Assembly (NCBI GenBank): GCA_002841685.1
Contig: PHAM01000009.1
Location: 1-38,448, forward strand
From: Elusimicrobia bacterium HGW-Elusimicrobia-2
Lineage (GTDB): Bacteria; CG03
Reading direction: 5' to 3'
DNA: 38,448 nucleotides
The first letter of the stretch is position 1. Every line of letters begins with the position of its first letter. A program made the position numbers and the translations under genes. The notes under the pieces were generated by a model. The model was given only the letters and a program-made list of their open reading frames with translations, did not search any database and was not told the origin of the DNA. Shown here piece after piece: positions 8,560 to 38,363 of this stretch.

Positions 8560-8561
8560 TT

Positions 8562-9608: not shown

Positions 9609-9613
9609 TTTCA

Positions 9614-12033: not shown

Positions 12034-12055
12034 CCGTCCCTTTTTTTGTAGGCAA

Positions 12056-12085
12056 TTGAAAAAATGGCAGGAAATTGTTAAGAAT
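12056..12085 (+). promoter_or_regulatory. Possible weak promoter upstream of hpf
   Basis: TTGAAA at 12056-12061 and AAGAAT at 12080-12085 with an 18-base gap. This is the only gap in the kdsC-ptsH block large enough for a promoter, which makes it plausible, but the -10 match is poor. Confidence 0.3.
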
Positions 12086-12102
12086 ACGCACAGGAGGGCA
12101 AT

Positions 12103-12594
12103 GTGAAAGTAGTTGTGAAAAATTTTAAACTGACATCGGCGTTCGAAAAACATGTCCATTCAAAAATGGACGGCATTGAAAAGAAATTTTCTCTGGACGA
12201 TGTGACAATCACGGTGTCACAGGAGAAAACTTCATCCTCCGTCCAGTTCCTCGGCAGGGATGTCCATGGCGCGACGGTGAAAATCAAATGCTCCGCCCTC
12301 GACGCCTATGCGGCGGTTGATAAGATGAGAGATGTGTGCAAGGAAAAGCTCGCCCGCCTGAAAGAAAAGAAATCAGGCCAGCGTCGCATCGCCGAGCCCG
12401 CAGCGCCAGCGCCTGCAGAAAGAATAAGGAAAGTCAGGATATCCCCCATGTCCCGTCAGGAAGCCACCGATAAAATGACCAGCCGTAATTATAATTTCTG
12501 GCTTTTTGTCGACAGGGAAACAGGTGTTTTTACTGCCCTTTACCGTAAGGATGACGGGGATATGTGCGTGGCGCACCCCGTTTTTGAAGAGTAA
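12103..12594 (+). CDS. hpf: Ribosome hibernation promoting factor, long form
   Basis: Binds the 30S subunit in the channel normally occupied by tRNA and mRNA, and in its long form pairs ribosomes into inactive 100S dimers. The N-terminal beta-alpha-beta domain covers residues 1-95 (VKNFKLTSAFEKHVHSKMDG). A proline/alanine linker follows, then the C-terminal dimerisation domain at about 108-160 (KVRISPMSRQEATDKM, NFWLFVDRETGVFTALYRK, DDGD). The start is GTG at 12103 with AGGAGG five bases upstream; the ATG two bases earlier hits a stop at once. Only three bases separate it from the next PTS gene, so it is co-transcribed with ptsN and rapZ as in Proteobacteria. Confidence 0.93.
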   Translation: MKVVVKNFKLTSAFEKHVHSKMDGIEKKFSLDDVTITVSQEKTSSSVQFLGRDVHGATVKIKCSALDAYAAVDKMRDVCKEKLARLKEKKSGQRRIAEPAAPAPAERIRKVRISPMSRQEATDKMTSRNYNFWLFVDRETGVFTALYRKDDGDMCVAHPVFEE

Positions 12595-12597
12595 AAC

Positions 12598-13059
12598 ATG
12601 AAATTCAGCGATTATACAAAAGTTTCTCTTCTAAAACCCCGCACGGGTGCTGTTTCCAAGAAAAAAGTGATAGAGGAGCTCGTTCAGATCCTCGCTGAAA
12701 ATAAGATTATCCCGAAAAAATCCGTCTCTCCGGTTTGTAAAGCCGTGCTTAAAAGGGAAGCGCTCGGTTCCACGGGCATAGGCCAGGGCGTTGCCCTGCC
12801 GCATGTTAAAATCAAGGGCGTCAAAAACATAAGCTTCGTTTTCACCAATTCCGAGACAGGGGTCGAATTTAATTCTCTTGACGGCGGGCCGGTCAACATA
12901 ATATTCCTTTTGATAGGCCCGGAAAAAGCCGGGGAGGAATACATAAAGGCCCTTTCCTTACTCGCCCGGAATCTGAACGATCCTTATTTCCGCAGGGCCC
13001 TCGCGGCGGCTAAAAACGGAAAAGAGGTTATGTGTATTCTTAAAAAAACAGAACAATGA
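12598..13059 (+). CDS. ptsN: PTS EIIA, fructose/nitrogen type (PtsN-like)
   Basis: A 153-residue phosphocarrier domain of the fructose/nitrogen EIIA family. The active-site motif is GSTGIGQGVALPHVKIKGVK, with phospho-histidine H69. A stand-alone IIA next to hpf and rapZ is typically the regulatory PtsN, which relays phosphorylation state rather than transporting sugar. Here a complete PTS lies directly downstream, so it could also take part in fructose uptake with parts encoded elsewhere. It overlaps rapZ by four bases. Confidence 0.88.
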   Translation: MKFSDYTKVSLLKPRTGAVSKKKVIEELVQILAENKIIPKKSVSPVCKAVLKREALGSTGIGQGVALPHVKIKGVKNISFVFTNSETGVEFNSLDGGPVNIIFLLIGPEKAGEEYIKALSLLARNLNDPYFRRALAAAKNGKEVMCILKKTEQ

Positions 13060-13931
13060 AAAAAAGGCGCGCAGCCCGTTTCCCGAGTGTCCGTGAAAAC
13101 ACAGTGATCATCACTGGCGTTTCCGGAGCCGGCAAGACGCTGGCGCTTAAATTCCTGCAGGACGCGGGTTATTTCTGCATAGACAATCTGCCTGTCGGGA
13201 TGATGGATCAATGTTTCAGCGATCAGGCTCTTGCGTCAAAGCGCATTGCAGTGGGTGTGGATATAAGAGAGAAAGAGCATTTTGATCTGTTTATCAAACT
13301 GCTTGAAAAAAACAAGTCACTTAAAGTGATATTCCTTGAAAGCAGAATGGACGTGCTTGTCAGAAGATTCATGGAAAACCGGCGCAAGCCGCCGTTTGCC
13401 AGCGCCGGACAGAGCATATTATCCGCGCTTGAAGATGAGCTGAAATGCCTTGCACCGCTTCGCGCGGAGGCGGATCTCATTATTGATACCTCGGATCTGA
13501 ATCCATGGCAGCTCAAAAACGCGATTAAAGGCAAACTCGGTTTTTCGGCCGGGGCTTTTACCCTTATATTGATGAGTTTCGGTTACAAATATGGACTGCC
13601 GCCCGAAGCGGATATGATTTATGACCTGCGGTATCTGCCCAATCCCAATTATGACCCGCGCTTGCGTTCCCTGACGGGGCGTTCCGCCCGGGTGGCGTCA
13701 TTCGTCAGGAAAGATCCGCTGTACAGCCAATCGCTTAATTCCGCGGCGCGTTTTTTGAAACTCATAATTCCAGCGTATAAGAAAACGGGAAAAGCTTTCC
13801 TGACGATAGGGACGGGTTGTACGGGCGGCCGGCACAGGTCGGTTGTTTTCGCAGGGGATCTGAAAAAAAAGCTTGATGGAAAATATGAAGTCAAAATTTT
13901 TCACCGCGACACGGGGCAGCGTATATGGTGA
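13056..13931 (+). CDS. rapZ: RapZ/YvcJ-family nucleotide-binding protein
   Basis: A P-loop protein known in E. coli as the adaptor that directs RNase E to the small RNA GlmZ and senses glucosamine 6-phosphate. In other phyla the role is less clear. Family markers are all visible: Walker A GVSGAGKT at residues 21-28, DNLPV just after, SFGYKYGLPPEAD, DLRYLPNPNYDPRLRSLTG, and the C-terminal IGTGCTGGRHRSV loop. Length 291 is normal. It overlaps the PTS IIA gene by seven bases. The pairing with hpf and ptsN is the conserved arrangement of the rpoN locus. Confidence 0.93.
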   Translation: MKKRRAARFPSVRENTVIITGVSGAGKTLALKFLQDAGYFCIDNLPVGMMDQCFSDQALASKRIAVGVDIREKEHFDLFIKLLEKNKSLKVIFLESRMDVLVRRFMENRRKPPFASAGQSILSALEDELKCLAPLRAEADLIIDTSDLNPWQLKNAIKGKLGFSAGAFTLILMSFGYKYGLPPEADMIYDLRYLPNPNYDPRLRSLTGRSARVASFVRKDPLYSQSLNSAARFLKLIIPAYKKTGKAFLTIGTGCTGGRHRSVVFAGDLKKKLDGKYEVKIFHRDTGQRIW

Positions 13932-14359
13932 GAGTGATTATAGCCGCGCACGGTGACATGGCCTCGTATTTTTTAAAAAGCGCCGAGGATTTGCTGGGAC
14001 CCGTGGAGGGCATGTATGCCCTGGATTTTAAGCGCCAGCAATCTACGGGCGAACTTGTGGTGGGCTTAGGCAAAATTCTGAACAGGCACAAGGGAGACAA
14101 TGTTTTCATCCTCACGGATTTTCTCGGCGGCTCGCCCTGCAACTGCGCCTGTCATTTTATCGCGGAAAACAACGTGTGGATAATATCCGGCGTGAACCTT
14201 CCGATGCTGATAGAGATCATGATCAAAAAAGAAAAAATGCCGCCGGATGTATTATGCGCCGATGTTATTAAGGCGGCCAGGGATTCCATAGAAAATGTCT
14301 GCGCGAAGTTCTCGGAAGTTTCCACTTCTGCCCGCAATGAACGCAAGGCGGGGAATTGA
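13925..14359 (+). CDS. PTS EIIA, mannose family
   Basis: Accepts phosphate from HPr and passes it to EIIB of the mannose-type permease. The phosphorylated histidine is H9 in IIAAHGDMAS, followed by the conserved TDFLGGSPCN segment of the family. The protein is 144 residues, a stand-alone IIA rather than the IIAB fusion of E. coli ManX. Its stop overlaps the TTG start of the IIB gene (TTGA). In deltaproteobacteria an IIA-Man in this place is often all that remains of the system; here IIB, IIC and IID all follow. Confidence 0.9.
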   Translation: MVRVIIAAHGDMASYFLKSAEDLLGPVEGMYALDFKRQQSTGELVVGLGKILNRHKGDNVFILTDFLGGSPCNCACHFIAENNVWIISGVNLPMLIEIMIKKEKMPPDVLCADVIKAARDSIENVCAKFSEVSTSARNERKAGN

Positions 14360-14886
14360 TCAAGTCGCTGAGGATTGATTCAAGGCTCATCCACGGCCAG
14401 ATAGTGGAGGGCTGGCTGAAATTCATAATGGCTGACGAGGTGCTGATCATAGATGATTTTATACGAGAAAGCCCTTTTGAAAAGAAAATACTGAGATTCG
14501 CGCTGCCGCCAGAGATCGATCTGGAGGTTTTGTCCATTACAGAGGCTGCCGCGCGCTGGACGGAGATAAGCGCGTCTTCCAAGAGATTTTTTATTCTTTT
14601 GCAGTCAGTGGATATGCTCAGCCGTTTCTACGGATGTCTTCTCGGCTCACGGCCGCCGTTGCCTCCGCTGCCCCCGGTGAATCTGGGTCTTATAAATTTT
14701 ATGGACTCAAAAACGCTGCTGACTAAGGCGGTTTATCTGGATGAGCGTGAAAGAGAACAGATCAAGGTTTTGATTGAAAGCGATGTGGAGATATACGCTC
14801 AGGCACTGCCTTCCAATGAAAAAATTTCCATAGCGGCGCTGTTGGAAGGCGGCAATGTGAAAGCGCCCGGGAACACCGATGAATAA
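14356..14886 (+). CDS. PTS EIIB, mannose/fructose/sorbose family
   Basis: The sugar-phosphorylating cytosolic subunit. The active histidine is H13 in RIDSRLIHGQIVEGW, a near-exact match to the family. The remaining 160 residues fit a IIB-Man domain, although a proline-rich loop (RPPLPPLPPV near residue 97) is unusual. It starts at TTG 14356, overlapping the IIA stop, and its end overlaps the GH57 gene by eight bases. The chain of overlaps suggests the whole set is translated as a unit. Confidence 0.9.
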   Translation: MIKSLRIDSRLIHGQIVEGWLKFIMADEVLIIDDFIRESPFEKKILRFALPPEIDLEVLSITEAAARWTEISASSKRFFILLQSVDMLSRFYGCLLGSRPPLPPLPPVNLGLINFMDSKTLLTKAVYLDEREREQIKVLIESDVEIYAQALPSNEKISIAALLEGGNVKAPGNTDE

Positions 14887-25372: not shown

Positions 25373-25382
25373 ACTCCTTCCG
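25373..25382. other. Breakpoint joining two truncated genes head to head
   Basis: The HAMP-like coding frame of the kinase is recognisable on the minus strand up to about 25372. The MacB-like coding frame is recognisable on the plus strand from about 25382 (GRFFTEKEM). In the plus frame a stop lies at 25364-25366. Ten bases separate the two fragments, and neither has a promoter or ribosome site there. This is a deletion or inversion scar, or an assembly misjoin. Confidence 0.75.
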
Positions 25383-26182
25383 TGGGCAGGTTTTTTACAG
25401 AGAAAGAGATGATAGCTAGGGAAAAAGTCGCGCTTCTGGGAAAATCCGTGGTTGACACGTTATTTGAAAAGGAATATCCGATAGGGAAGACGATTAAAAT
25501 AAACAGAATAAGTTTTAAGGTGATCGGTGTTTTGCCCACAAAGGGTTCCGGGGGCTGGAGGGATCTTGATGATCAGATAATCATCCCGCTGAATACGGCC
25601 ATGTACAGGGTCTTCGGTAATAAATATGTCGAGGGAATCGAAGTCAAAGTAAAAGATGAGAATGATATGGGCCTCGTACAGTCTGAAATACAGCGGCTTG
25701 TAGCGAAACGCCAGGACCTGCCCGATGATAAGAAGGAGCTGATAGAGGTGAGGAATTCCGCCGAGATACAGGAGGCTGTCTCGTCAACCGCCGACACTTT
25801 CGCCTGGCTGCTGGGTTCAATAGCTTTCATCAGCCTTCTTGTGGGCGGTATAGGCATAATGAATATAATGCTTGTTTCCGTGACCGAAAGAACAAGGGAA
25901 ATCGGCATACGCAAAGCCATAGGGGCAAATAACAGGGACATCCTTTCCCAATTCATAATAGAAACCGTTGTCATATGTATTCTGGGCGGTGTGCTCGGCG
26001 TGTTATTGGGAGCGGCTATAACGGTGGCTCTTTCCAGATTCGCCGGCTGGAGCACAAAGATCTCGGCCTTTTCAGTGGCGCTGTCTTTGATATTTTCCGG
26101 ACTCATCGGGCTTTTCTTCGGCTTGTGGCCGGCCCGGAAAGCGGCCCGGCTCAATCCCATAGACGCGCTGAGATACGAGTAA
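25382..26182 (+). pseudogene. C-terminal part of a MacB/FtsX-type ABC transporter permease
   Basis: Encodes the rear part of a MacB-like periplasmic domain (EKVALLGKSVVDTLFEKEYP, FKVIGVLPTKGSGGW) and three transmembrane segments of the FtsX domain. The conserved loop SVTERTREIGIRKAIGANNR and the end RKAARLNPIDALRYE are intact. A full permease of this type is about 400 residues; the first 130 or so, with the first transmembrane helix, are missing. The nominal start GTG 25382 has no ribosome site. No ABC ATPase lies upstream. It is most likely inactive, since an FtsX permease needs its first helix to hold the periplasmic domain. Confidence 0.8.
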
Positions 26183-26242: not shown

Positions 26243-26290
26243 TTGACAACCTTAATCCGATTATGCTATAAATGCTATAGCGTTTATAGC
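26243..26290 (+). promoter_or_regulatory. Promoter and palindromic operator for the hsd operon
   Basis: TTGACA at 26243-26248, an 18-base spacer, and TATAAA at 26267-26272 with TG one base upstream. A 26-base near-perfect palindrome at 26265-26290 covers the -10 box and start-point. It has arms GCTATAAA and TTTATAGC and the self-complementary centre GCTATAGC, with only one mismatched pair (positions 9 and 18). The first gene downstream begins with an XRE-type DNA-binding domain, so autorepression at this site is likely. Only the leader of a few bases lies between the palindrome and the ribosome site. Confidence 0.75.
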
Positions 26291-26303
26291 TATGGAGGCA
26301 ATT

Positions 26304-28124
26304 ATGGATTTTAAAGATATTTCAAAAATTATTGGCCAATTGCGAGAAGAAAGTGGTTTAACCCAAGAAAATCTCGCCCAGAAATTAAATGTTTCCTTCT
26401 CTACAGTAAACCGATGGGAAACCGGAAAAAGCGAACCGCATGGCAAAGCAAAAACAAAAATTCTTGAACTTATTGAAAAAGCGGACTTAGATATCAACGA
26501 GCCATCTTCAGTTATATCACCACAACGAAAAAAAATTAAATCTAAAAATGATGTTTTGAGCACAAAATCCATGGAGCAGATGCTCTGGAGCGCCGCTTGT
26601 TCTATCCGGGGAGAAAAAGACGCCCCCAAATTCAAAGATTATATTCTTCCGCTTCTATTTATTAAAAGGCTGTCTGATGTATTTGAAGATGAGATACTAA
26701 GGCTTACAGAAAAATACGGGGATCAAAAACTTGCGGAATCTTTGGTAGAGGGAGATCGCACACTCGTCAGATTTTATATACCCCCGGCAGCGCGTTGGCA
26801 GGTACTTAGCGGACGGAACCAATTTAATTGGCCGAAAGATAAAAAACCCAAAACACTCGGCGAGCAGCTTACTCTCACAATGCGGGCTATTGTAAAAACA
26901 AATTCCAGATTGAGTGGTGTTATTGATATAGTGGATTATAACGAGACCAGAAACAACGAACGCGAAATAAGTGATTCCGCGCTTTCCGGCATCATAGAAA
27001 TTTTCTCTGACCCAAAATACCGATTAGGCTTAAATGATGTTGAACCTGATTTTCTCGGGCGGGCATATGAATATTTGCTTCGTAAATTTGCCGAAGGACA
27101 GGGGCAAAGCGCTGGTGAATTTTTTACGCCAACTGAAGTCGGCTGGCTGATGGCAAATATTATCAGACCTGAACAGGGAGAAGAAGCCTATGATTATTGT
27201 TGCGGGTCAGCGGGGCTTCTCATAAAATGTCAGCTTGCCTTGAAAGAACGGGATACAAAAATTAACCGCCCGCTTCAGCTTTATGGACAGGAATTTACCG
27301 GATCCACTTATGCCATAGCGCAAATGAATATGGTAATACACGATATGGAGGGAGAAATAGTCCGAGGCAACACAATGACGAATCCTAAATTCAGGGATTC
27401 AAATTCCAGCCTGAAAAAATTTGACATAGTTGTTGCTAATCCGATGTGGAACCAGCCCTTTGACCAGTCTGTTTATGAAAATGACCCGTTCGACCGCTTT
27501 GAATCACAAGGCGGGATAACTGCCGGTAAAGCCGATTGGGCCTGGCTTCAACACACTTCCGCTTCTTTAAATATGCATGGCAGAGCCGCCATCGTTTTAG
27601 ATACCGGCGCAGTAACCAGAGGCAGCGGTAGTAAAAATGAAGATAAAGAAAAGACTATAAGAAAATGGTTTGTTGATAGGGATTTTGTCGAAGGAGTAAT
27701 TCTTCTTCCGGATAATCTTTTTTATAATACTTCGGCCGCTGGAATTATTGTATTTTTAAACAAGAATAAACCCGCAATCCGGAAAAATAAAATCATTTTG
27801 ATAAACGCCAGTAATGAATGTAAAAAAGGCCGGCCCAAAAACTACATTCCAGACGAAAGTATAAAAAAAATATCACAGGCATTTATCAAAGGCGCAGATA
27901 TTGACAAGTTTGTTCGTGTTATCACAACAATGGAGGCTAAAAAAAATGATTATAATTTATCTCCTTCAAGATACATTGATGTTTCCGATAAAGTCGCCTA
28001 TCGCCCTATTCCTGAATTATTAAATGAGTTGAAGGGTTTGGAAAAAGACTCAAAAAAGATAGATGCCGAGCTGGATACTATCTTTAAAAAACTATCCAAA
28101 CAGATAGCGGGAGGAACAACATAA
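26304..28124 (+). CDS. hsdM: Type I DNA methyltransferase HsdM fused to an XRE helix-turn-helix domain
   Basis: A 606-residue fusion. Residues about 6-55 are an XRE/Cro-type domain (IIGQLREESGLTQENLAQKL, STVNRWETGKSEPHG), as found in restriction controller proteins. After a basic linker, HsdM begins at about 88 with the helical N-terminal domain (MEQMLWSAACSIRG). AdoMet motif I is DYCCGSAGLL at about 297-306, and the catalytic motif IV is ANPMWNQPF, where NPPF/Y is usual. FFTPTEVGWLMA is the characteristic stretch before motif I. It methylates adenine in the sequence chosen by HsdS, protecting self DNA. ATG 26304 has GGAGG five bases upstream; ATG 26292 overlaps that site. The HTH and the operator together suggest the protein controls its own operon. 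Confidence 0.92.
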   Translation: MDFKDISKIIGQLREESGLTQENLAQKLNVSFSTVNRWETGKSEPHGKAKTKILELIEKADLDINEPSSVISPQRKKIKSKNDVLSTKSMEQMLWSAACSIRGEKDAPKFKDYILPLLFIKRLSDVFEDEILRLTEKYGDQKLAESLVEGDRTLVRFYIPPAARWQVLSGRNQFNWPKDKKPKTLGEQLTLTMRAIVKTNSRLSGVIDIVDYNETRNNEREISDSALSGIIEIFSDPKYRLGLNDVEPDFLGRAYEYLLRKFAEGQGQSAGEFFTPTEVGWLMANIIRPEQGEEAYDYCCGSAGLLIKCQLALKERDTKINRPLQLYGQEFTGSTYAIAQMNMVIHDMEGEIVRGNTMTNPKFRDSNSSLKKFDIVVANPMWNQPFDQSVYENDPFDRFESQGGITAGKADWAWLQHTSASLNMHGRAAIVLDTGAVTRGSGSKNEDKEKTIRKWFVDRDFVEGVILLPDNLFYNTSAAGIIVFLNKNKPAIRKNKIILINASNECKKGRPKNYIPDESIKKISQAFIKGADIDKFVRVITTMEAKKNDYNLSPSRYIDVSDKVAYRPIPELLNELKGLEKDSKKIDAELDTIFKKLSKQIAGGTT

Positions 28125-28125
28125 G

Positions 28126-29172
28126 ATGAAAGAAAATTCAGAAATTGTGTTGTATACCAGTCCCGATGGACAAATAAAAGTTGAGGTGCGTTTACAGGAT
28201 GAAACCGTATGGCTGACACAATCAGCATTGGCGGAATTATATCAAACAACTCCTCAAAATATTACATTACATTTGAAAGCCATATACGCTGAAGGAGAAC
28301 TTGATAAAATAGCAACTTGTAAGGAATACTTACAAGTTCAAAAAGAGGGAGCGCGGCAAATATCACGGAAGCGAAAGTTTTATAATCTCCCGGCTATCCT
28401 AGCTGTGGGTTATCGTGTTCATTCTCCTCGCGGAACCCAATTCCGAAAATGGGCTACGGCATGCCTGAATGAATTTCTTGTTAAGGGATTCTTAATGGAT
28501 GATGAACGTTTAAAAGCGGGAGTAAATATAGGTTCTGATTATTTTGATGAAATACTGGAACGTATCAGGGATATCCGTTCCAGCGAAAAACGGTTTTATC
28601 AAAAAATCCGGGATATCTATAAACTGGCTGTTGATTATGATCCTACTGCCGAGAAAACTTTGGAGTTTTTCAGTATTGTGCAAAATAAACTGCATTTTGC
28701 TATTTCAGGAAAAACCGCTGCCGAACTTATTGCCGAACGGTCGGACTCTAAAAAAAACAATATGGGCCTTACGGCCTGGAAGGGGGTAAAAGTCCGCAAA
28801 GGAGATGTGATAATTGCAAAAAACTATTTAAACGAAAGTGAAATGGACGGACTCAACCGGATTGTGACGATGTATTTGGATTATGCGGAGGATCAGGCAA
28901 AACGCCATCGGCAAATATTTATGCGTGACTGGCAAAAAAAGTTAAATGCTTTTTTAAAGTTAAATGAACGGATGATTTTACGTAACTCCGGAAAAGTAAG
29001 TAAAAAAATTGCTGATGAATTGGCAATTAAAAGATATGGAATCTATCATCAGCAGCGATTGACTGCGGAAGCGCAACGGGAAGCAATTGAGGATGATAAT
29101 GAATTGAAACGTATTCAAAAGAAAATAGAAAAAAAGAGGAGGAAAAACAATGGCAAGCAAGAAAACGATTGA
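28126..29172 (+). CDS. RhuM-family protein
   Basis: A 348-residue protein of the RhuM family, first named from a Salmonella pathogenicity island and often found inside type I RM loci. Its biochemical role is not established. The N-terminal region has the typical DGQIKVEVRLQDETVWLTQS and ALAELYQTTPQNITLHL, a Bro-N/KilA-like DNA-binding helix-turn-helix. Then comes ILAVGYRVHSPRGTQFRKWA and a long helical C-terminus ending in a lysine-rich tail (KRIQKKIEKKRRKNN). It starts one base after the hsdM stop, with GGGAGG eleven bases upstream, and overlaps the HNH gene by 23 bases. The placement suggests it modulates or accompanies the RM enzyme. Confidence 0.88.
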   Translation: MKENSEIVLYTSPDGQIKVEVRLQDETVWLTQSALAELYQTTPQNITLHLKAIYAEGELDKIATCKEYLQVQKEGARQISRKRKFYNLPAILAVGYRVHSPRGTQFRKWATACLNEFLVKGFLMDDERLKAGVNIGSDYFDEILERIRDIRSSEKRFYQKIRDIYKLAVDYDPTAEKTLEFFSIVQNKLHFAISGKTAAELIAERSDSKKNNMGLTAWKGVKVRKGDVIIAKNYLNESEMDGLNRIVTMYLDYAEDQAKRHRQIFMRDWQKKLNAFLKLNERMILRNSGKVSKKIADELAIKRYGIYHQQRLTAEAQREAIEDDNELKRIQKKIEKKRRKNNGKQEND

Positions 29173-29407
29173 ACAGGTGTGGGAAAAAGCTCAACCTTTT
29201 AAAAGACAAAATCCAGACGTATTCAGAAGAGATCCGAAAGGAAATAAGATCCGCTGGGGTTCTTACGGAATACAGGGGGAGTATGGTTGGGAAATAGACC
29301 ATAAAAACCCGAAGGCAAAAGGCGGAAGCGATAAACCGCAAAACCTTCAGCCGCTTCATTGGGAGGAAAATAGAGAAAAATCGGATAAATATCCGTCAAA
29401 GAAATGA
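29150..29407 (+). CDS. Small HNH endonuclease domain protein
   Basis: An 85-residue protein consisting of little more than an HNH fold: YGWEIDHKNPKAKGG at about 45-59, then SDKPQNLQPLHWEENREKS at 60-78. The DH pair, the central asparagine and the final histidine are all in place for a metal-dependent nuclease. The start ATG 29150 has GAGGAGG seven bases upstream and lies in the end of rhuM. Such stand-alone HNH proteins occur as nicking enzymes or as subunits of larger nucleases. Inside an hsd operon it could add a second cutting activity, but this is inferred. Confidence 0.8.
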   Translation: MASKKTIEQVWEKAQPFKRQNPDVFRRDPKGNKIRWGSYGIQGEYGWEIDHKNPKAKGGSDKPQNLQPLHWEENREKSDKYPSKK

Positions 29408-29423
29408 TATTAAGGGGGTAGAA

Positions 29424-29759
29424 ATGGCTCAATTAGGAAAAATTACTTTTACTGGAAAATCTGGCAATAAATATGATTTCATTGCTTATTCTTGGGATAC
29501 TAATTTCAAAGAAGGTTATGGCGCAGTATATTTTATTACCAAAAGAACACAAAAAGCTACTGGCGGGTATAACCACGTAGAAATTTATGTTGGAGAAACC
29601 GAAGATTTATCTACAAGATTTGATAATCATCACAAAGAGGATTGTTTTAAAAAATATAACGCCAACTGTAAGTGTATTCACGGGGAACAAAACAAAGAGA
29701 CAAGATTGGCTATCGAAAAAGATTTGATTGACAACTACAATCTGCCTTGTAATGACTAA
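29424..29759 (+). CDS. GIY-YIG-like small protein
   Basis: A 111-residue protein with features of a GIY-YIG nuclease: GAVYFITKR at about 33-41 and VEIYVGETEDLSTRF at about 51-65 stand for the GIY and YIG strands and the conserved arginine. The glutamate in QNKETRLAIEKDLIDNYNLP fits the later helix of the fold. GIY reads AVY and YIG reads YVG, acceptable variants. The ribosome site is a run of G at about 29414-29419. It overlaps hsdS by eight bases, so it is part of the hsd operon. Whether it cuts DNA is unproven; the catalytic residues appear kept. Confidence 0.7.
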   Translation: MAQLGKITFTGKSGNKYDFIAYSWDTNFKEGYGAVYFITKRTQKATGGYNHVEIYVGETEDLSTRFDNHHKEDCFKKYNANCKCIHGEQNKETRLAIEKDLIDNYNLPCND

Positions 29760-30888
29760 TAATATTATGGTTAAATGGAATAAAGAGCCTTTTGTAGAAT
29801 CTATTGAACATATGCGAACAGAACGCACAAAACAAATTCAAAAAAATGCCTATTTGCAAAATGGTGCTTATCCAATAATCGATCAAGGTCAAGACAAAAT
29901 TGCTGGCTGGACAAATGACGAACAGTCCGTAATTAATGAAAACCTACCATTAATAATTTTTGGAGATCATACCCGGATTTTTAAATACATAGATTTTCCA
30001 TTTGCAGTTGGAGCAGATGGAACCAAACTTATTAAACCCAAAAACAAATTCAATCCGAGATATTTCTATTATTATTTATTAACATTAGACATCCCCAGTA
30101 AAGGATATAGTCGCCATTATAGAACACTTAAAGAAAAGTCAATCAATTATCTCCCTCTTCCCGAACAGAGAAAAATTGCGGCGATTCTTTTTAAGATACA
30201 GCAGGCCATCGAAACACAGGAAAAAATATTGGCCAATTTGCAGGAACTAAAAAAATCCACAATGGAATATCTTTTCACACACGGCACCAAAGGCGAAAAA
30301 ACTAAACAGACAGAAATCGGACAGATTCCTGAGAGTTGGGAGGTAGAAACATTCTTAGATACCATTGATGATTTCAAAATAGACCGCGAAAAACAAATAC
30401 AAGCAAATGTTTATTTATCTGAAGGAAAGTATCCAATAATTGATCAAGGTCAAAAACTTGTTTCAGGATGGACAAATAATGAAGCAGATATATTACGAAA
30501 CGACTTGCCATTAATAATATTTGGTGATCATACCCGGGTCTTTAAATATGTAGATTCCCCTTTTGCTATAGGAGCTGATGGTACAAAAATAATTAAACCT
30601 CAAAGCAGATTTTACGCAAAATATTTTTACTATTATCTATTGAGGTTGGATATTCCAAGTAAAGGATATAGTCGTCATTATAAGACATTGAAGGAAAAAG
30701 AAATATTTTATCCCATTTTCTCAGAGCAAAAAGAAATCGCAAATATATTAGAAACAATCGACCGCAAAACAGCTTATCATAGTTTTAAAAAGATAATGTT
30801 GAACAATCTTTTTAATTCTATGCTTAATAAATTGATGACCGGAGAAATACGAGTTAATAATTTGGATATTAAATTAACTGATGTCTAA
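29752..30888 (+). CDS. hsdS: Type I specificity subunit HsdS with two near-duplicate recognition domains
   Basis: Chooses the DNA sequence for the M and R subunits. It has two target recognition domains separated by the usual helical spacer (EQRKIAAILFKIQQAIETQE, near residues 140-160). The two TRDs are very similar: YPIIDQGQDKIAGWTN against YPIIDQGQKLVSGWTN, LPLIIFGDHTRIFKYIDFPF against LPLIIFGDHTRVFKYVDSPF, and IPSKGYSRHYRTLKEKS against IPSKGYSRHYKTLKEKE. Each TRD reads half of the bipartite site, and the two bind in opposite orientation, so a symmetrical site is predicted. I use ATG 29752, overlapping the previous stop; ATG 29767 is also possible and neither has a clear ribosome site. Confidence 0.93.
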   Translation: MTNNIMVKWNKEPFVESIEHMRTERTKQIQKNAYLQNGAYPIIDQGQDKIAGWTNDEQSVINENLPLIIFGDHTRIFKYIDFPFAVGADGTKLIKPKNKFNPRYFYYYLLTLDIPSKGYSRHYRTLKEKSINYLPLPEQRKIAAILFKIQQAIETQEKILANLQELKKSTMEYLFTHGTKGEKTKQTEIGQIPESWEVETFLDTIDDFKIDREKQIQANVYLSEGKYPIIDQGQKLVSGWTNNEADILRNDLPLIIFGDHTRVFKYVDSPFAIGADGTKIIKPQSRFYAKYFYYYLLRLDIPSKGYSRHYKTLKEKEIFYPIFSEQKEIANILETIDRKTAYHSFKKIMLNNLFNSMLNKLMTGEIRVNNLDIKLTDV

Positions 30889-30901
30889 AAAGGAGTTACA
30901 T

Positions 30902-33900
30902 ATGAAAGAAACCCCTGATTTTAAACTTTTGGATGATATACCTTGTGGAATAGCAGACACCGACATAGATAAATTCCATCATACAATGTATGCAGAAATA
31001 TTGAGAGATATATTTCTTCCAAAATCTATCCGTCCAGGAATCAGCGTTGGGCTTTTTGGAAAATGGGGACAAGGTAAAAGCACAGTTGTTTATCTCTTAA
31101 AAAAACTGTTACCCGAAAATATAAAAGTAGTTGTTTTTAATGCTTGGAAGTCTCGCGGCAAAGATAGTGTTCGACGACAACTACTGCTTAAAATTATTAA
31201 AGAGATTAATCCTGATAAATATAAAAAGATTTCAAGATTCTCAACCCCTGAATTACCAATGGAATTAAGAAGCTATGAGGAACAGGATAAATATTCTGAT
31301 AATAAATTGTGGTGGTTGCTAACAACAAAAGAAAAAATAGACCCTTGGATTACCGTTGCGCTAATTACGGCATTATTACTCTTGGCAATATCAATTTATC
31401 TATTTATTAAAGGTATATCATCCAATAATCTAAATGTTCAAACTTATATACTTTGGTGTGTCGCTACTCTCTTTGGACTTATTATAAGCTGTATTACTGT
31501 TGTGTTCAGGTGGTTTAAAAACCGCAAAAAACAAATGTTATTGGCTGCTTCGCCAATATCAGATAGCCAACGATTAAAATACCCTGAACAATTTCAGTTA
31601 GTATTTGAAAATGAAGTAAAAGAATACTGTAAGCAAGGAAAAAAAATAATCATAGTTGTGGACGATATAGACAGATGCGATCCCAATACAGTAATTGAGG
31701 CATTAGCTGCTATCCGTCAGTTTTCTCCTTGCTCACAAGAGGAATCATCCGAAAATATTAATTGTCAATTCCTTATTCCTTGTGATGAAAATCAAGTTGT
31801 AACGGCATTAGAAGCAGATGGATTTAAGGAAAATAATGATAGCTCACAATACCATGACTACCATAGTGATGAACGGCTTAGGAAATTCTTTGACATAATA
31901 ATACACATGGATTCGCATCAGGTAGACGAACTTGTTTTATATGCTGCTGACCTAGCAAAAACCATAAATATTGACCCAGATATTGCACGTGATATTGTTG
32001 AATTAAGCAACCCCCAAGATCCAAGAGCAGTAAAAAAGCTTTTGAATGCGTATAAAATCGCAAAAGCTAAGATCAAAAATATGCAAAAAAACAATAAATT
32101 GCCCGCAACAGAAGAAATGCCTTGTTTTGAAAGAACCTTGATTACATTGATAGCTTTACGCGAAATTACACCCAAGGACTACGAAATAATAAAAATGAAT
32201 CCTATTTTAATATTGAATAGAACAATCGATAAAACTAGCGATTCAGAGATAAGCCCCCGGGGAAAATCAATCTTAAATATAGCTGGGGAAGTTAACCATT
32301 TAACTGCCGCATATTTAATTAGAGGAAGATATGAGCGTGAATTACATGGGAACAAAGAGTCATGGAAATTCTTACAAAAATTTGAAGAGAAAAATGCAAC
32401 GGATTTGAAAAACGTCATATCAATAGCATCTCCTGATGAGCAAAGAAAATACCTATCATTTATGAAAAGCCAAGTAAAAAAACAGTATGGCGATATCAAA
32501 CTAAGAGAACTCCTTTCTTTATTTGTCAATTATGCGGTATTAGATAGTTCAAGCGCCGATTTCATAAAGCCCTGCATTGAAAAAATTATTGAATTAGATA
32601 CGGTATTGGAAAAAATCATGAAGAGATTCCAAAAATATGAAGAACTGCTAAAAGCAATATCTCCTTTACCAATTAATTTGAAAAATCGATTATTCTGGGC
32701 AGTATTCAATAACTTCAAATCAACAAATGATAGCAATGAAGAATTACGTTTTCTATTTTTTAACGCTAACGAATTTGAACCTAAATTGTTACAGACATTC
32801 AAAAGTTGGATGTTGAAATATATTGAAGATGGCCGCGCTAAAAATGAACGCGATATGTTAGGTGTTTTAATGAAAACTCTTCCAAAAGATTCTAAGAAGT
32901 TTTATGGTTTTCTTCCTGATGCTGGGCTTCTTTTTTGTAAAACGGATAAGTCGCCAAATCAGCAGTGGAATGATGATAGTGTCGATGCAGATGAATCTAC
33001 CTGGCCACATTTACAAATCATTCCGACTTTTGTCGGAAATAATATAGTTGTGGCTAATAAGGCTATTCAGATTCTTTTAAGCAAAGATGGCCCATTAGCT
33101 TCCCTCACCGATTTGTCAAAACCTCCTTTGGGTTATTTACCGGCTTGGAAAACTATAGGGGCTTTATGTAAAGTGCTTAATTCAGAAGAATCCGTAACAG
33201 GATTATTTTCTTTACTTTGGGGATGGCTAAATGCGCAAAGTACTTTCAAAGGAAGATTAATTATTTTAGAAGAGATAGCGCCTATACTGTTATTGTTTCA
33301 ACAAAGAGAAATAATCCAATTAGCTTCTTATATTGGGAACTCTGTTATAAACCAGGCGGAAGGAATTGATGTATTGGACTGGATTGGTGCAAAACCTAAA
33401 GATAAAAATAAACAAGAAAAGTGGATTCTGCTAACTGAGAAAATATTTAACTCTATTGTGGCACAGTTACAAACTTTGTCTTCCCTAAACGTGCACCAGC
33501 AAGAACTGCTCAAAAAGATAGCTCTACTTAAATGGCCTATAGAAATTGTGGCCGATCAAATCCTATCAACTAAAATAAAAAATATTCCAGTTACAACGCT
33601 TGAAGTCTGGATAGAATTTTTGCTGCCATTAATGAGGACAAAACGAGAAAATTCAGGTTCTATCATTAGAAAATTACTAACTGCCAGACAGAGAATTAAA
33701 GAATCACTAAAAGCAGGTAAATCTATACTCTGGGAAAATAAAATCTCTGCTGATGACGCTACAATTATAGTAGCTGTCATAGGAGATAAGATAGGAGAAT
33801 TTCATACACTATCAGATGAACTCAGTAAATTAACTAATGTGCCTGGCGCAACAAAAATATTTGAAAATTTAGTGGATTTACATAGAGGTTTCACTCCTGA

Positions 33901-34174
33901 TGAATTACATCAAAGATTTCTTATATTAAAATATGTAGCTGCAGGAATTAATAAATGTTCGCAAGATTATAAAATTAAATTTCAAGAAATTATGCGAAAG
34001 ATGTTTATCACTGATAAAACACCAATAGTTTTAGAAGCAATAGATATTTTATCTGATTTAGATTCATTGGATAAAAAATTTATTCGGGAGCTTAAGCAAA
34101 AAACCGCTGAAACAAAAGATGATTCTATTAGAAAAAAGTTAGAAGAGCTTTTGAGAAAGCAAGATGCGAAATAG
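30902..34174 (+). CDS. KAP-family P-loop ATPase with long helical C-terminal region
   Basis: A 1090-residue protein. Walker A is GKWGQGKST at 53-61 and Walker B IIIVVDDIDRC at 249-259. Two transmembrane helices lie between them, at about 151-171 (ITVALITALLLLAISIYLFI) and 181-203 (YILWCVATLFGLIISCITVV). That insertion inside the P-loop domain is the mark of the KAP family (Kidins220/ARMS and PifA), placing the ATPase on the cytosolic face of the inner membrane. From about 400 on there are some 690 residues of alpha-helical sequence, probably a HEAT/ARM-like solenoid. PifA excludes phage T7, and KAP proteins recur in defence islands. ATG 30902 is preceded by AGGAG at 30891-30895; the ATG at 30881 overlaps hsdS. 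Its place between hsdS and hsdR makes it a likely functional partner. Confidence 0.88.
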   Translation: MKETPDFKLLDDIPCGIADTDIDKFHHTMYAEILRDIFLPKSIRPGISVGLFGKWGQGKSTVVYLLKKLLPENIKVVVFNAWKSRGKDSVRRQLLLKIIKEINPDKYKKISRFSTPELPMELRSYEEQDKYSDNKLWWLLTTKEKIDPWITVALITALLLLAISIYLFIKGISSNNLNVQTYILWCVATLFGLIISCITVVFRWFKNRKKQMLLAASPISDSQRLKYPEQFQLVFENEVKEYCKQGKKIIIVVDDIDRCDPNTVIEALAAIRQFSPCSQEESSENINCQFLIPCDENQVVTALEADGFKENNDSSQYHDYHSDERLRKFFDIIIHMDSHQVDELVLYAADLAKTINIDPDIARDIVELSNPQDPRAVKKLLNAYKIAKAKIKNMQKNNKLPATEEMPCFERTLITLIALREITPKDYEIIKMNPILILNRTIDKTSDSEISPRGKSILNIAGEVNHLTAAYLIRGRYERELHGNKESWKFLQKFEEKNATDLKNVISIASPDEQRKYLSFMKSQVKKQYGDIKLRELLSLFVNYAVLDSSSADFIKPCIEKIIELDTVLEKIMKRFQKYEELLKAISPLPINLKNRLFWAVFNNFKSTNDSNEELRFLFFNANEFEPKLLQTFKSWMLKYIEDGRAKNERDMLGVLMKTLPKDSKKFYGFLPDAGLLFCKTDKSPNQQWNDDSVDADESTWPHLQIIPTFVGNNIVVANKAIQILLSKDGPLASLTDLSKPPLGYLPAWKTIGALCKVLNSEESVTGLFSLLWGWLNAQSTFKGRLIILEEIAPILLLFQQREIIQLASYIGNSVINQAEGIDVLDWIGAKPKDKNKQEKWILLTEKIFNSIVAQLQTLSSLNVHQQELLKKIALLKWPIEIVADQILSTKIKNIPVTTLEVWIEFLLPLMRTKRENSGSIIRKLLTARQRIKESLKAGKSILWENKISADDATIIVAVIGDKIGEFHTLSDELSKLTNVPGATKIFENLVDLHRGFTPDELHQRFLILKYVAAGINKCSQDYKIKFQEIMRKMFITDKTPIVLEAIDILSDLDSLDKKFIRELKQKTAETKDDSIRKKLEELLRKQDAK

Positions 34175-34233
34175 TTTATCAATAGAAAACACACTGTTCG
34201 AGTGTTGTTGCAGGAGTAGAGGATTAAATAGTT
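34175..34233 (+). other. Short gap with a small hairpin before hsdR
   Basis: This 59-base gap is the largest inside the hsd operon. It contains ACACT-GTTCG-AGTGT, a five-pair stem extended by three more pairs past a bulge. No T-run follows, so it is not a standard terminator. It may adjust HsdR translation, a common way to delay restriction relative to methylation, but the evidence is thin. Confidence 0.3.
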
Positions 34234-37158
34234 ATGTCTGAAAATAAGGGATTAGAATACAGTTCGGTTCAAAAGCCGATGATTAAATATGCGTCGGCGA
34301 TTGGCTGGGATCCTGTCAGTCAAGCAGATGCCTTATCGCTGAGAAAAGGCGAAGGCGGTCTGCTTTTTTACAGGATACTTGAAGAAAAACTTATTGAGTT
34401 AAATCCCGGTTTAATAAATAAAGACAATGTCTATGAAGTAATCGGAAAGATTGAATCTGTCAGCAATAATATTGAGGGTAATGCTGAAATTCTTTCCTGG
34501 ATGAGGGGAGAAAAAAGCATATATGATTCCAAAGAAAAAAGGGAAAGAAATGTGACTGTTATTGATTTTTCAACACAGGCGCTGAAAAACAATTTGTTTC
34601 AAGTTACTGAAGAATGGCAATACGGCAATGCCAAAGAGAAAAACCGCGCGGATATAATTTTCCTGATAAACGGAATACCGGTAGCAATAGTAGAAAATAA
34701 AAGCGCTAAAAAAGAAAAAGGAATTGAAGAAGCTCTGATTCAAATCCGGGAATATCATCATGAAACTCCTGAGATGCTTACAATGCCCCAGGTGTTTGAT
34801 ATAACCCATCTGATAGACTTTTTCTATGGGGCTACATGGAGTCTCGGAAGAAAAAATATATTTAACTGGAAGGATGAAGAAAAAGGTAACTTCGAAGTCA
34901 AAATAAAGAAATTTTTTAACAGAGAACGTTTTCTTAAAATGCTCAAAGAATGGATTTTGTTTTACCTGAAGGATGACGAACTTCAAAAATCCATATTGAG
35001 ACAACACCAGTCCAGAGCTGTAGAAAAGATTGTGGCCCGATGCGCTGATTCCGGCAAGAAAACGGGGTTGATATGGCACACCCAGGGATCGGGTAAAACC
35101 TTTACAATGATTATTGCGGCTAAACACATATTAGAGCAAAAAGATATTTTCAGCAAAGGTACTGTAATATTGATGATTGACCGGAACGAGCTTGAAGGAC
35201 AATTATCCGGATGGATTGCGAGAATTCTCGGGGAATTAAAAACCTTTGACATAAAAATAGAGCCTGCGACCAGCAAAAAGAGACTCCAGGAACTTTTGAA
35301 AGCAGATTTTCGCGGTCTGATAATTTCAATGATCCATAAGTTTGATAAGATTCCGAAAGCCATTAATTCGCGTGATAATATTTTTGTATTAATGGATGAA
35401 GCCCACCGATCGGTGGGTGGTGATTTTGGTAATTATCTTCTCGGAGCTCTTCCTAATGCAACCTTAATCGGTTTTACAGGAACTCCCATAGATAAAACCG
35501 CCTACGGCAAAGGTACTTTTAAAATTTTCGGGAAGGAAGATGATAAGGGGTATCTTGATAAATATTCAATAACGGAATCAATTGAAGATGGAACAACACT
35601 TCCGCTTAAATATACATTGGCGCCCAATGAAATAAGAGTTGATTCGGAACTTCTTGAAAAAGAATTCTTAAATCTGGTTGAAGCCGAAGGCGTTAGTGAT
35701 TTTGACGAACTCACGAAAATTCTTGATAATGCTGTAAATATAAAAGCATTTCTTAAATCTCCTGACAGAATTGAAAAAGTATCCAAGTTTGTCGCAAACC
35801 ATTTTAAAGAAAATGTTGAACCATTAGGATATAAAGCTTTTCTTGTAGCTGTGGATAGGGAAGCTTGCGCTTTGTATAAAGAAGCCCTTGATAAAATAGT
35901 GCCTGCCGATTACTCTGTTCCCGTATATACATCCGCCCAGCATGACAGCGAACGCTATCCGCTTGTATATAAACATCAGATTTCTGATGAAAAAGAAAAA
36001 CAGACGAGAAAGCTTTTTCTAAAAAACGATTTAAAGCCAAAAATATTGATTGTGACGGATAAACTGCTTACCGGATTTGATGCGCCTATTCTTTACAGCA
36101 TGTATCTTGATAAACCTATGCGTGACCATGTGCTTTTACAGGCAATTGCAAGAGTGAACCGCCCTTATGAAATTAACGATACAGTCAAGAAGCCCTGCGG
36201 CCTTGTTGTTGATTTTGTCGGCATATTTGAAAAACTTGAAAAAGCGCTGGCTTTTGATTCAGATGTTGTAAGCGGCGTAATTGAAAATCTGGACATATTA
36301 TTTAACCGCTTCAAGAAACTTATTAGTGAAGATGCGAAACCGCATATTGAATTATTGAAAGGGGAAATTGACGATAAAACTATTGAAAAAGCTATTGATG
36401 CCTTTTCTGATAAAAATAAACGTGAAGCTCTCTATAAATTGTACAAAGAAATTGAAACCCTTTATGAAATACTTTCCCCCTCGTCCAAACTCAGAGAATA
36501 TATTGCGCCTTTCAAACGGCTGGCTATATTATACAGGATTATAAAAAACGCCTATCGGAATAAACCTGTATTCTATGATGATATTGCCAGAAAAACATCA
36601 TTGCTTGTCCGGGACAATGTTTCTGTATCCGGCTTGGATAACACAATGAATATTGTTAAAATCGACCAGAATACACTAAAAGCTATAAAAGAAAATCAGT
36701 CATCGGACAACAATAAAATTATAAATCTTATCAATACCATACGAAAGACTGTAGAAGAAGAATCCGGCGATTCTCCCTATTTAATTCCTATCGGAGAACG
36801 GGCTGAAAATATAAGAGAACAATATGATGGTCGACAATGTTCTACAAAAGAAGCTCTTAAATCAATTGAGCAACTCATACAGGATATAATTATATCAAAG
36901 AAAGAACAGGCCGAAAAAGGTATGGATTCAAATACATTTACAATATTTTGGATACTTAAACATGAAAAGATAAATAATCCGGAAAGTGTCGCCTACGCCG
37001 TTAATTCTATTTTTATGCGATTTCCCAATTATAATTTTAATATTGAAGAAATGCGTCAGCTGAAAGCGGAATTATATCGCATTTTATTATCTGCCGTGGG
37101 AAAAGGCAAAATGTTTTCTATAGTTGGAAAACTTTTGAAAATCAATGAGAAAAAATAA
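34234..37158 (+). CDS. hsdR: Type I restriction enzyme HsdR
   Basis: The motor and nuclease subunit that moves DNA past the bound complex and cuts when blocked. Its nuclease motif is RADIIFLINGIPVAIVENKS, with D140, E154 and K156 in the PD-ExK arrangement. The helicase core shows Walker A TQGSGKT at 283-289, DEAH at 388-391, GFTGTP, ILIVTDKLLTGFDAP and motif VI QAIARVNRPY. The C-terminal 300 residues are helical, as needed for docking on HsdM. All key residues are present over 974 residues, so restriction should be active. It overlaps the small metalloprotease gene by 14 bases. Confidence 0.95.
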   Translation: MSENKGLEYSSVQKPMIKYASAIGWDPVSQADALSLRKGEGGLLFYRILEEKLIELNPGLINKDNVYEVIGKIESVSNNIEGNAEILSWMRGEKSIYDSKEKRERNVTVIDFSTQALKNNLFQVTEEWQYGNAKEKNRADIIFLINGIPVAIVENKSAKKEKGIEEALIQIREYHHETPEMLTMPQVFDITHLIDFFYGATWSLGRKNIFNWKDEEKGNFEVKIKKFFNRERFLKMLKEWILFYLKDDELQKSILRQHQSRAVEKIVARCADSGKKTGLIWHTQGSGKTFTMIIAAKHILEQKDIFSKGTVILMIDRNELEGQLSGWIARILGELKTFDIKIEPATSKKRLQELLKADFRGLIISMIHKFDKIPKAINSRDNIFVLMDEAHRSVGGDFGNYLLGALPNATLIGFTGTPIDKTAYGKGTFKIFGKEDDKGYLDKYSITESIEDGTTLPLKYTLAPNEIRVDSELLEKEFLNLVEAEGVSDFDELTKILDNAVNIKAFLKSPDRIEKVSKFVANHFKENVEPLGYKAFLVAVDREACALYKEALDKIVPADYSVPVYTSAQHDSERYPLVYKHQISDEKEKQTRKLFLKNDLKPKILIVTDKLLTGFDAPILYSMYLDKPMRDHVLLQAIARVNRPYEINDTVKKPCGLVVDFVGIFEKLEKALAFDSDVVSGVIENLDILFNRFKKLISEDAKPHIELLKGEIDDKTIEKAIDAFSDKNKREALYKLYKEIETLYEILSPSSKLREYIAPFKRLAILYRIIKNAYRNKPVFYDDIARKTSLLVRDNVSVSGLDNTMNIVKIDQNTLKAIKENQSSDNNKIINLINTIRKTVEEESGDSPYLIPIGERAENIREQYDGRQCSTKEALKSIEQLIQDIIISKKEQAEKGMDSNTFTIFWILKHEKINNPESVAYAVNSIFMRFPNYNFNIEEMRQLKAELYRILLSAVGKGKMFSIVGKLLKINEKK

Positions 37159-37447
37159 GGCTAAAACAAAAACAGAGCTTAAAAAATTAATAAATGACTG
37201 GGCGCAGGAAATAAAAGTTACTCCGAAACAAATACGAGTTCAGCAGATGAAACATAAGTGGGCTTCCTGCTCAACTTCAGGATGGATAAGTTTTAATTTT
37301 GACTTACTCAGCAAATCAAAAAAATTTCAGGATTATGTTATCATACATGAATTACTTCATCTTCAAATTCCTAATCACGGGAAATTATTTAAAAGCATGA
37401 TGAACATATTTTTTCCCGATTGGGAAAAATATGAAAGCTCTTTTTGA
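37145..37447 (+). CDS. YgjP/DUF45-type metalloprotease-like protein
   Basis: A 100-residue protein with the zinc-binding motif HELLHLQIPNH (HExxH plus a third histidine after five residues) near residues 74-84. It is preceded by KHKWASCSTSGWISFN, the W-x-S-C-x-x-x-G-x-I-x-x-N pattern of the YgjP family. Family members are commonly 170-230 residues; this is a short version lacking the N-terminal part. Such genes often end type I RM operons, with unknown purpose. The gene starts in the end of hsdR. Its stop lies in a small hairpin (AGCTCTTT-TTG-AAAGAGCT, 37436-37454) that lacks a T-run. Confidence 0.82.
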   Translation: MRKNKAKTKTELKKLINDWAQEIKVTPKQIRVQQMKHKWASCSTSGWISFNFDLLSKSKKFQDYVIIHELLHLQIPNHGKLFKSMMNIFFPDWEKYESSF

Positions 37448-37469: not shown

Positions 37470-38363
37470 CTACTCCGTTAAGTAACATTGCGCTAACCCG
37501 GGGCAAAAAATATCCAGTGCTGCATTGTAATCCAGCGATGGCAAACCGGGCATTGTGCTGCGGTAAGAACTTCCTGAATCCATTGCCTGATTTGAGGAAG
37601 CGTGTAATTTTTTGCCTCTTTTTTTCCCCTTCCGATTTTTTATCAATTGTAGAAAACAATATGCCATAAAAGTTAATGTCATATGATGATGTAACCCCCT
37701 CCATGAGCGCCCTTCAAAATGATCCAGCCCAAGTTCTTCCTTTAATTGCTGATATCCCTGTTCAATGGTCCATCTCCGATGGATTGTGTGAATCATCTTT
37801 TTCAACGATATGTTTTTGGGAAAGCTTGAAACATAATACTTCTGTTCTTCTCCGTCATTCTCAATGATAAGCCACCTTTCAATTCCCGGTCGCCAATAAG
37901 CTTTGCTGTTTGCTTCAAAAACTCGTATTCGAGTTGCTCTAACCGTTTTCCTTTTCTGCAACGGCAATTCAATTACTTGCCACTTCTTTGGCGTTTTTTC
38001 CAGTTTCTTTGCCCAGTCTTTTGCCTTTATTGGTCTCACACTTTTTTGATAAACTTCCGGATAAATCCGCGGTCGTCCCTTGCTCTTTTTCTTTCTGTTT
38101 AATCTTACATCTATTGGCCAGAAAGTGTGTGTGCAGGGAATCCTGCCAATAAATTTTTCTCTCATCCTGTCTAATTCCTTTAAGAAAGGTCTCAGTTCTC
38201 CGTATCCTGCATCAAAAATTGTACACTCATGCGGAACTTTATCTTTAATTTTCTTCAATGACTCAATTGCCATTTCCCACTTCTTTTTGTGTCCCGATCT
38301 CCTTTTCGGCACTCCTGCTTTCTTCATCCGCTTAATATCATTTGTCCACTGAGTCTGTTGCAT
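37470..38363 (-). pseudogene. IS701-type transposase, truncated and frameshifted
   Basis: The central part matches IS701 transposases: MKKAGVPKRRSG, then TIFDAGYGELRPFLKEL with the second catalytic aspartate, and WTIEQGYQQLKEELGLDHFE followed by GRSWRGLHHH with the catalytic glutamate. The N-terminal 100 or more residues, with the first catalytic aspartate, are missing; the frame is closed by a stop 27 bases above the ATG. Near the C-terminus, poly-T runs at 37608-37613 and 37619-37625 mark a frameshift. The other frame reads IRQWIQEVLTAAQCPVCHRW and ends APG-stop at 37493, the normal end of the family. The visible frame instead ends in unrelated residues at 37470. It is an inactive relic at the edge of the defence island. 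Confidence 0.85.

Follow-up and report, generated by a model that had tools for sequence, protein, structure and literature searches.

A probable modular type I restriction-modification operon with RhuM, nuclease-like and KAP cargo in an Elusimicrobia genome

Contig PHAM01000009.1 of Elusimicrobia bacterium HGW-Elusimicrobia-2 (assembly GCA_002841685.1), analysed here over its positions 1 to 38,448 (38,448 nucleotides (nt); the window), carries eight co-directional plus-strand genes, most of them overlapping, at 26304-37447. In order, they encode a type I methylase with an XRE domain (XRE-HsdM), RhuM, an HNH and a GIY-YIG nuclease-like protein, the specificity protein HsdS, a KAP P-loop NTPase, the restriction protein HsdR and a DUF45/YgjP peptidase. 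We read these genes as a horizontally acquired, modular type I restriction-modification (R-M) operon, and give this reading a probability of roughly 0.7. XRE-hsdM, hsdS, hsdR and ygjP would form a chassis, and two slots within it would hold cargo genes with separate functions.

Chassis and cargo in related loci

The reading draws on a survey of 40 loci that were chosen by HsdM similarity to the window alone, with accessory genes ignored. The search covered 395 Desulfobacterota and 396 Bacteroidota genomes, from which the best matches were taken with up to 20 kb of DNA around each. The conserved chassis has the order hsdM-[slot A]-hsdS-[slot B]-hsdR-ygjP. Counting slot A as filled when the hsdM-hsdS gap exceeds 250 nt, we found it filled in 19 and slot B, between hsdS and hsdR, filled in 27 of the 31 loci with ordered hsdM, hsdS and hsdR, and at least one slot filled in 29. 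In about 30 of the loci so selected, the ygjP/DUF45 gene lies next to hsdR and mostly overlaps it. Because of these two counts, we regard filled slots as the normal state and the DUF45 gene as part of the chassis. An earlier reading of the window from its sequence alone (the sequence-only reading) had listed DUF45 among the genes that expand the operon; found beside hsdR in nearly all loci examined, it is a chassis gene instead.

Four loci (L123, L124, L126 and L127) match the window at 71-72% identity in HsdM, 67-69% in HsdR and 34-45% in HsdS, and their cargo differs. Across phyla, HsdM and HsdR are conserved at 66-72% while the cargo is replaced wholesale. Judged from these comparisons, a modular chassis with exchangeable cargo is highly probable.

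Slot B cargo, named by PADLOC and Pfam, includes Gabija (GajA and GajB in L151, a Gabija-like pair in L154 and a GajA-like gene in L138), Lamassu (LmuA and LmuB, L153), SIR2-HerA (L159), Kiwa (KwaB with a small upstream gene, L147), QatABCD (L055), a TIR-pAgo partner (L128), MNT-HepT (L132), RhuM-Fic proteins (L123 and L160), KAP genes (with Abi_2 in L029; L074) and a kinase gene (L126 and L127). Slot A holds Schlafen/AlbA-type proteins, Fic, Xre-M78 pairs, a nucleotidyltransferase pair, ORF6N proteins and, in L159, RhuM. Nearly every type I operon of this HsdM clade (29/31) is also a carrier of other genes, and its hsdS-hsdR gap holds whole, separately described defence systems. The same gap holds DarTG2 in a published island, where an M48 metallopeptidase follows and the authors proposed a potential recombination hotspot (PMC12255303); the survey extends that suggestion to a pattern across several systems. 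Reading the hsdM-hsdS-hsdR gaps is a practical route to new defence genes, with KAP proteins bearing a long helical C-terminus, the kinase pair of L126 and L127 and a protein of 1148 amino acids (aa) in L129 as candidates.

Individual loci are worth describing in their own right. In L055 (Desulfobacterales; 6300-14601), a complete QatABCD set lies directly after hsdS and precedes a 1402-aa Sacsin/NO VEIN-type protein, and an hsdR-like fragment begins at the locus edge. The slot B protein of the L129 type I operon (1148 aa; 6730-10173) has no Pfam match and sits beside a DUF3800 gene. The slot B protein-kinase genes of L126 (5078-7182) and L127 (5028-7111) each have an adjoining 405-420-aa partner, that of L126 without a Pfam match; kinase and partner possibly constitute an undescribed kinase defence pair.

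The operon, its promoter and the chassis enzymes

The eight window genes very probably form a single operon because neighbours are tightly spaced or overlap, at distances of 1, -23, 16, -8, -8, 59 and -14 nt from hsdM to ygjP. Each gene product scored above the curated Pfam cut-off (Table 1). The strand, order and close spacing (gaps of -23 to 59 nt) given by the sequence-only reading were borne out in full. The left limit that it drew at 26243 is the start of a -35 box (TTGACA), not a gene start. G+C content is 31-42% across the operon against 46% in the DNA upstream. HsdM relatives at 71-72% identity belong to Desulfobacterota and the window's own small phylum yields just two weak matches, so the operon was likely acquired horizontally.

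The operon ends beside a DDE transposase gene that is single-copy in the genome. On the other side, a MacB-like permease gene (25382-26182) lies beside genes for a histidine kinase and a response regulator, which are on the opposite strand; the match of the permease to its family starts at profile position 108, and the gene therefore looks 5'-truncated.

Table 1. Features of the operon and its downstream border in the window.
Feature	Positions	Strand	Description
Promoter and palindromic operator	26243-26290	+	TTGACA at 26243-26248; inverted repeat at 26265-26290
hsdM with N-terminal XRE/HTH	26304-28124	+	Pfam HTH_3, HsdM_N and N6_Mtase
rhuM (slot A)	28126-29172	+	348 aa; Virulence_RhuM 8e-112; PDC-S05
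HNH nuclease-like gene (slot A)	29150-29407	+	85 aa; Pfam HNH 9.5e-7; own ribosome site; overlaps rhuM by 23 nt
GIY-YIG nuclease-like gene (slot A)	29424-29759	+	111 aa; Pfam 5.8e-5, just above cut-off
hsdS	29752-30888	+	Pfam Methylase_S; two recognition domains
KAP P-loop NTPase gene (slot B)	30881-34174	+	1097 aa; KAP_NTPase 3.6e-24; two-helix membrane insert; long all-helical C-terminus
hsdR	34234-37158	+	974 aa; Pfam HSDR_N and SWI2/SNF2; NCBIfam hsdR 1e-135
ygjP/DUF45 metallopeptidase gene	37145-37447	+	YgjP-like/DUF45 1.3e-30; overlaps hsdR by 14 nt
DDE transposase gene	37470-38363	-	Pfam; borders operon end; mobility context, outside the system

The longest open reading frame (ORF) of hsdM begins at 26292; we place its start at 26304, where a GGAGG ribosome site precedes it and relatives agree. 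Upstream lies a perfect 26-nt inverted repeat, GCTATAAA-10 nt-TTTATAGC, which holds the 12-mer ATGCTATAGCGT (26272-26283). This 12-mer is conserved as ATGCTATAGCAT just behind the TTGAC box, upstream of close XRE-HsdM relatives. Allowing one mismatch, it occurs in 6 of 10 promoters (the window counted) of HsdM genes with the helix-turn-helix (HTH) domain, the sequences from which the motif was itself derived, versus 0 of the 31 control promoters of HsdM genes without HTH. A general promoter scan of the window did not report the hsdM promoter, which was recognised by comparison of relatives; the scan missed it because its -10 element is non-canonical. We infer that the HTH fused to HsdM represses its own operon at the palindrome, and such repression would last until enough modification enzyme had accumulated. 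The confinement of the operator to XRE-HsdM fusions suggests a simple self-limiting control for type I operons entering a new host.

The core enzyme set is complete and its motifs are intact: the catalytic DYCCGSAG and NPMW of HsdM, the specificity domains of HsdS, and the PD-(D/E)xK-type motif ending ENK together with the motor motifs GSGKT and DEAH of HsdR. For hsdS, the ATG in Table 1, which overlaps the GIY-YIG stop, is a better start than the TTG chosen by the ORF tool. Its two recognition domains are 67% identical to one another over 112 aa, compared with 24-31% half-to-half in four other clade members, which suggests a recent domain duplication. Since the domains are near-duplicates, a bipartite and palindromic target is predicted. 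The HsdM2S complex would methylate one target, probably this palindromic one, and with HsdR would cut it.

The DUF45 protein is a short form (100 aa) with an intact HELLH motif. Because its linkage to hsdR is constant, its most likely target is the restriction enzyme itself, with a part in turnover or alleviation.

Functions of the cargo genes

The sequence-only reading proposed that the four extra genes form a second layer of defence, for instance with a membrane-linked ATPase acting when restriction fails and two small nucleases as effectors. The idea of extra defence holds up in part: cargo is normal in this chassis, is often a known defence system and has published precedents. We favour separate functions, in which a shared operon would bring shared control and shared transfer, not a shared biochemical machine. 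RhuM would have a DNA-binding-like N-terminus and act as a second R-M-linked factor in its own right, HNH and GIY-YIG would be accessory nucleases or hitchhikers of slot A, and KAP would be a separate membrane-anchored NTPase. That earlier proposal also made its second layer depend on finding the accessory genes in this place outside this genome; RhuM and KAP do recur in the same positions in other phyla, and relatives of HNH and GIY-YIG were not found near hsd genes in the other loci examined.

The HNH (DH...N...H) and GIY-YIG (GAVY, IYVG) motifs are intact. No relatives of either gene were found in the 40 HsdM-selected loci or in 80 KAP-selected loci. Across 198 Desulfobacterota genomes, GIY-YIG relatives occur in 3 and HNH relatives in 4, and the queries used detected no hsd genes in the regions around them. 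The predicted co-occurrence with hsd or KAP loci above chance therefore fails in this sample, and with the nearest relatives lying away from hsd genes, a role of the two proteins as effectors of the KAP is not supported. An alternative to which we give nearly even odds is that they are selfish or recombination-type nucleases hitchhiking in a permissive slot and adding nothing to defence. Both are small single-domain proteins missing from the other chassis loci, and HNH relatives are scattered on plasmids and one viral contig outside any R-M context; no GIY-YIG relatives were found on the plasmids or viral contigs searched. Against hitchhiking, both keep their catalytic residues, good ribosome sites and tight operon spacing, and one relative of HNH, on a Roseovarius plasmid, has SbcCD on one side and a Gabija-like gene pair on the other. 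Judged from these distributions, the two proteins are no less likely to be hitchhikers, or to serve an unrelated accessory function, than to be effectors.

RhuM is a firm family assignment (Virulence_RhuM, 373 bits against a cut-off of 33.7), and its position is kept in eight loci (L159, L195, L217, L223, L233, L238, L239 and L253). A Roseomonas plasmid has the order hsdM-rhuM-hsdS-hsdR, the exact slot A position of the window; an Aeromonas plasmid has rhuM in slot B; and in Thiodictyon and Aliarcobacter, rhuM is flanked by two genes resembling type III mod and res. When 80 RhuM genes on viral contigs were examined, matches to hsd or neighbour queries turned up at 20 of the loci, many of them ordered hsdM-rhuM-hsdS. 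The window RhuM model (confidence score pLDDT, the predicted local distance difference test, 78.5) best matches the DNA-binding protein DdrC in the PDB, at E 1.5e-3 and with a low TM-score. That match speaks against a proposal from 2013 that RhuM is a toxin acting by protein modification rather than a DNA-binding factor. The toxin proposal agrees with slot B cargo in which RhuM-type N-termini are fused to the Fic-like motif HSFIDGNKRIGAF (L123:4986-5999 and L160:5364-6374; PMC3710099). The motif is missing from the window RhuM, and we hold the toxin reading to be possible and the less favoured of the two.

The slot B protein is a KAP NTPase by its above-cut-off domain, intact Walker A and B motifs (GKWGQGKS, DDIDR) and membrane-helix insert, with two hydrophobic segments (152-182 and 184-212) inside the NTPase domain in the classical KAP arrangement. 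It had been called a giant KAP ATPase; the ATPase and its membrane segments stand, and the size is corrected to 1097 aa. In the AlphaFold model, pLDDT is mostly 75-90 in the NTPase domain, and the C-terminus is all-helical at low confidence, with 505 of 1097 residues below pLDDT 50. Foldseek placed RdrA of RADAR first among PDB matches (E 4.6e-5; 8hra, 8hr8 and 8hr7), followed by origin-recognition and ClpX-type ATPases, which agrees with an oligomerising AAA-type machine. PADLOC places the protein near QatA, PDC-S20 and PifA. Its PifA model covers residues 25-133 only, and the QatA profile scores 61.5 bits against a cut-off of 600, with no qatBCD in the operon. We lean slightly towards a stand-alone defence protein that shares control with the restriction enzyme. 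It would oligomerise when a phage cue is sensed, by the helical C-terminus or through a membrane change, and the oligomer would damage or arrest the cell as other defence KAPs do (Tmn, PifA).

Long KAP genes also lie directly after hsdS in L029 and L074, from two genera of Gammaproteobacteria. These two proteins are 35% identical to each other over their full length, and the window KAP aligns with them over the NTPase domain only (25% and 20%). We rejected orthology, since full-length similarity is missing and the C-terminus alone matches nothing. Among 80 KAP loci sampled out of 85,000 species genomes, 3 are embedded in type I operons (L029, L074 and L055, the last a Qat), and L019 adjoins a methylase-nuclease gene; a fixed KAP-hsd pair was rejected on this count. 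KAP genes are common and mostly stand-alone. A search of the window's phylum (16 genomes) returned only the window's own KAP, and a single-sequence query found no KAP relatives in viral contigs. In Omnitrophota, L041 (8157-13366; contig shared with L173) encodes a 1127-aa KAP, a relative of the L074 protein, after an AAA-type ATPase gene and a small gene, which we take to be candidates for an RloA/RloB-like pair.

Several points weigh against the modular reading with an independent KAP. The C-terminal 680 residues of the protein have no detectable sequence relatives, L029 and L074 included, which makes a sensor role for them a guess. KAP is rare as cargo: of 32 KAP hits across the 395 Desulfobacterota genomes, a single one has a type I hsdM next to it, and that one is a Qat. 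The structure matches of both KAP and RhuM have low TM-scores. The PrrC precedent shows that slot B genes can couple physically to the restriction enzyme, so KAP may not be independent of it.

This precedent underlies a guard model, in which KAP, and perhaps RhuM, would be latent toxins silenced by the intact restriction enzyme and freed once that enzyme is perturbed, whether by a phage inhibitor or by restriction that fails. KAP fills the gap between hsdS and hsdR where DarTG2 is found, and shares with PrrC a place within the hsd operon (PMC3710099, PMC12707154, PMC12255303); KAP genes are likewise placed in L029 and L074, and the 8-nt start/stop overlap of hsdS and the KAP gene suggests coupled translation. 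We consider the model unlikely, given that systems with known stand-alone activity (Gabija, Kiwa, Lamassu and Qat) also occur in slot B, that embedded TgvAB protects without HsdR activity (PMC11411939) and that most KAPs are found outside hsd operons. Still less probable is its most specific form, in which a KAP co-translated with HsdS would monitor the type I enzyme and kill or arrest the cell when restriction is blocked. Such a membrane-acting counterpart of PrrC would have at least two origins, whose C-terminal sensors are unrelated (the window; L029 and L074).

What finds no support in the second-layer proposal is the union of all four extra genes in one layer. One integrated new system, in which the KAP ATPase would act through HNH and GIY-YIG as its effectors, could point to a single tightly spaced operon and intact nuclease motifs, but we judge it very improbable, as we do any single machine made of all four: hsdS splits the genes into two slots that are filled independently elsewhere, G+C steps from 0.38-0.42 (hsdM, rhuM and hnh) to 0.32-0.33 (giy, hsdS and kap), no other locus of the two surveys holds the combination, and HNH and GIY-YIG relatives lie away from hsd and KAP genes.

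Comparison with known systems

Defence genes embedded in R-M operons are established: PrrC, RhuM and Abi2 have been described in such positions (PMC3710099). The sequence-only reading knew of no described system with this exact set. The exact set is indeed absent from the literature searched, and its kind has already been described (PMC3710099, PMC12255303, PMC11411939). A full-text search, with preprints and most subscription papers outside its coverage, returned no description of type I operons that carry KAP genes.

The closest counterpart is the RRDM (RptR-RMS-DarTG-M48) island of enteropathogenic E. coli, which shares the order hsdM, hsdS, embedded defence genes, hsdR and metallopeptidase (PMC12255303); in the window, too, cargo separates hsdS from hsdR, which a metallopeptidase gene follows. 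The M48-type metallopeptidase of RRDM is probably the same kind of gene as ygjP, likened by description rather than by sequence. RRDM also has a transcriptional repressor and palindromic sites at the operon promoter, for which the HTH of HsdM and its operator would be the counterpart. There the repressor RptR is a separate protein and the sites are TAGCTA repeats, whereas here the repressor domain is fused to HsdM and the operator is ATGCTATAGCAT. The cargo also differs: here it is KAP, and RhuM, HNH and GIY-YIG occupy a second gap, the one from hsdM to hsdS. The operon has neither a separate repressor gene nor DarTG cargo, and we rejected its assignment to the RRDM island proper.

EcoprrI/PrrC likewise has an extra gene inside a type I hsd operon, which in that case acts as a second layer (PMC3710099, PMC12707154). 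The KAP gene lies between hsdS and hsdR, and so an effector-like gene is placed as in the PrrC type. PrrC combines an ABC-ATPase with a HEPN anticodon nuclease, a pairing that is absent here; the window has a KAP NTPase with a membrane insert, in which Pfam gives KAP only and no RNase domain was found. TgvAB, in the type I operon of Vibrio cholerae VPI-2, is also an embedded defence pair, but is a GmrSD-like type IV enzyme (PMC11411939).

QatA, PifA and Tmn share the KAP P-loop domain with Walker A and B motifs. Tmn, a two-transmembrane KAP with anti-phage activity, resembles the window protein further in having two hydrophobic segments inserted in the NTPase domain, a likeness again drawn from description (PMC11846954). 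The window differs from all three in its longer and different KAP C-terminus, and has no qatBCD partners. RdrA of RADAR is the best fold match of the KAP model, for which only the NTPase region was modelled well, and the operon has no RdrB deaminase gene. Together, these comparisons show the operon to be a known type of structure with unusual contents, not a new system. It differs from RRDM in carrying KAP as cargo, in having a second slot filled and in the fusion of the repressor domain to HsdM.

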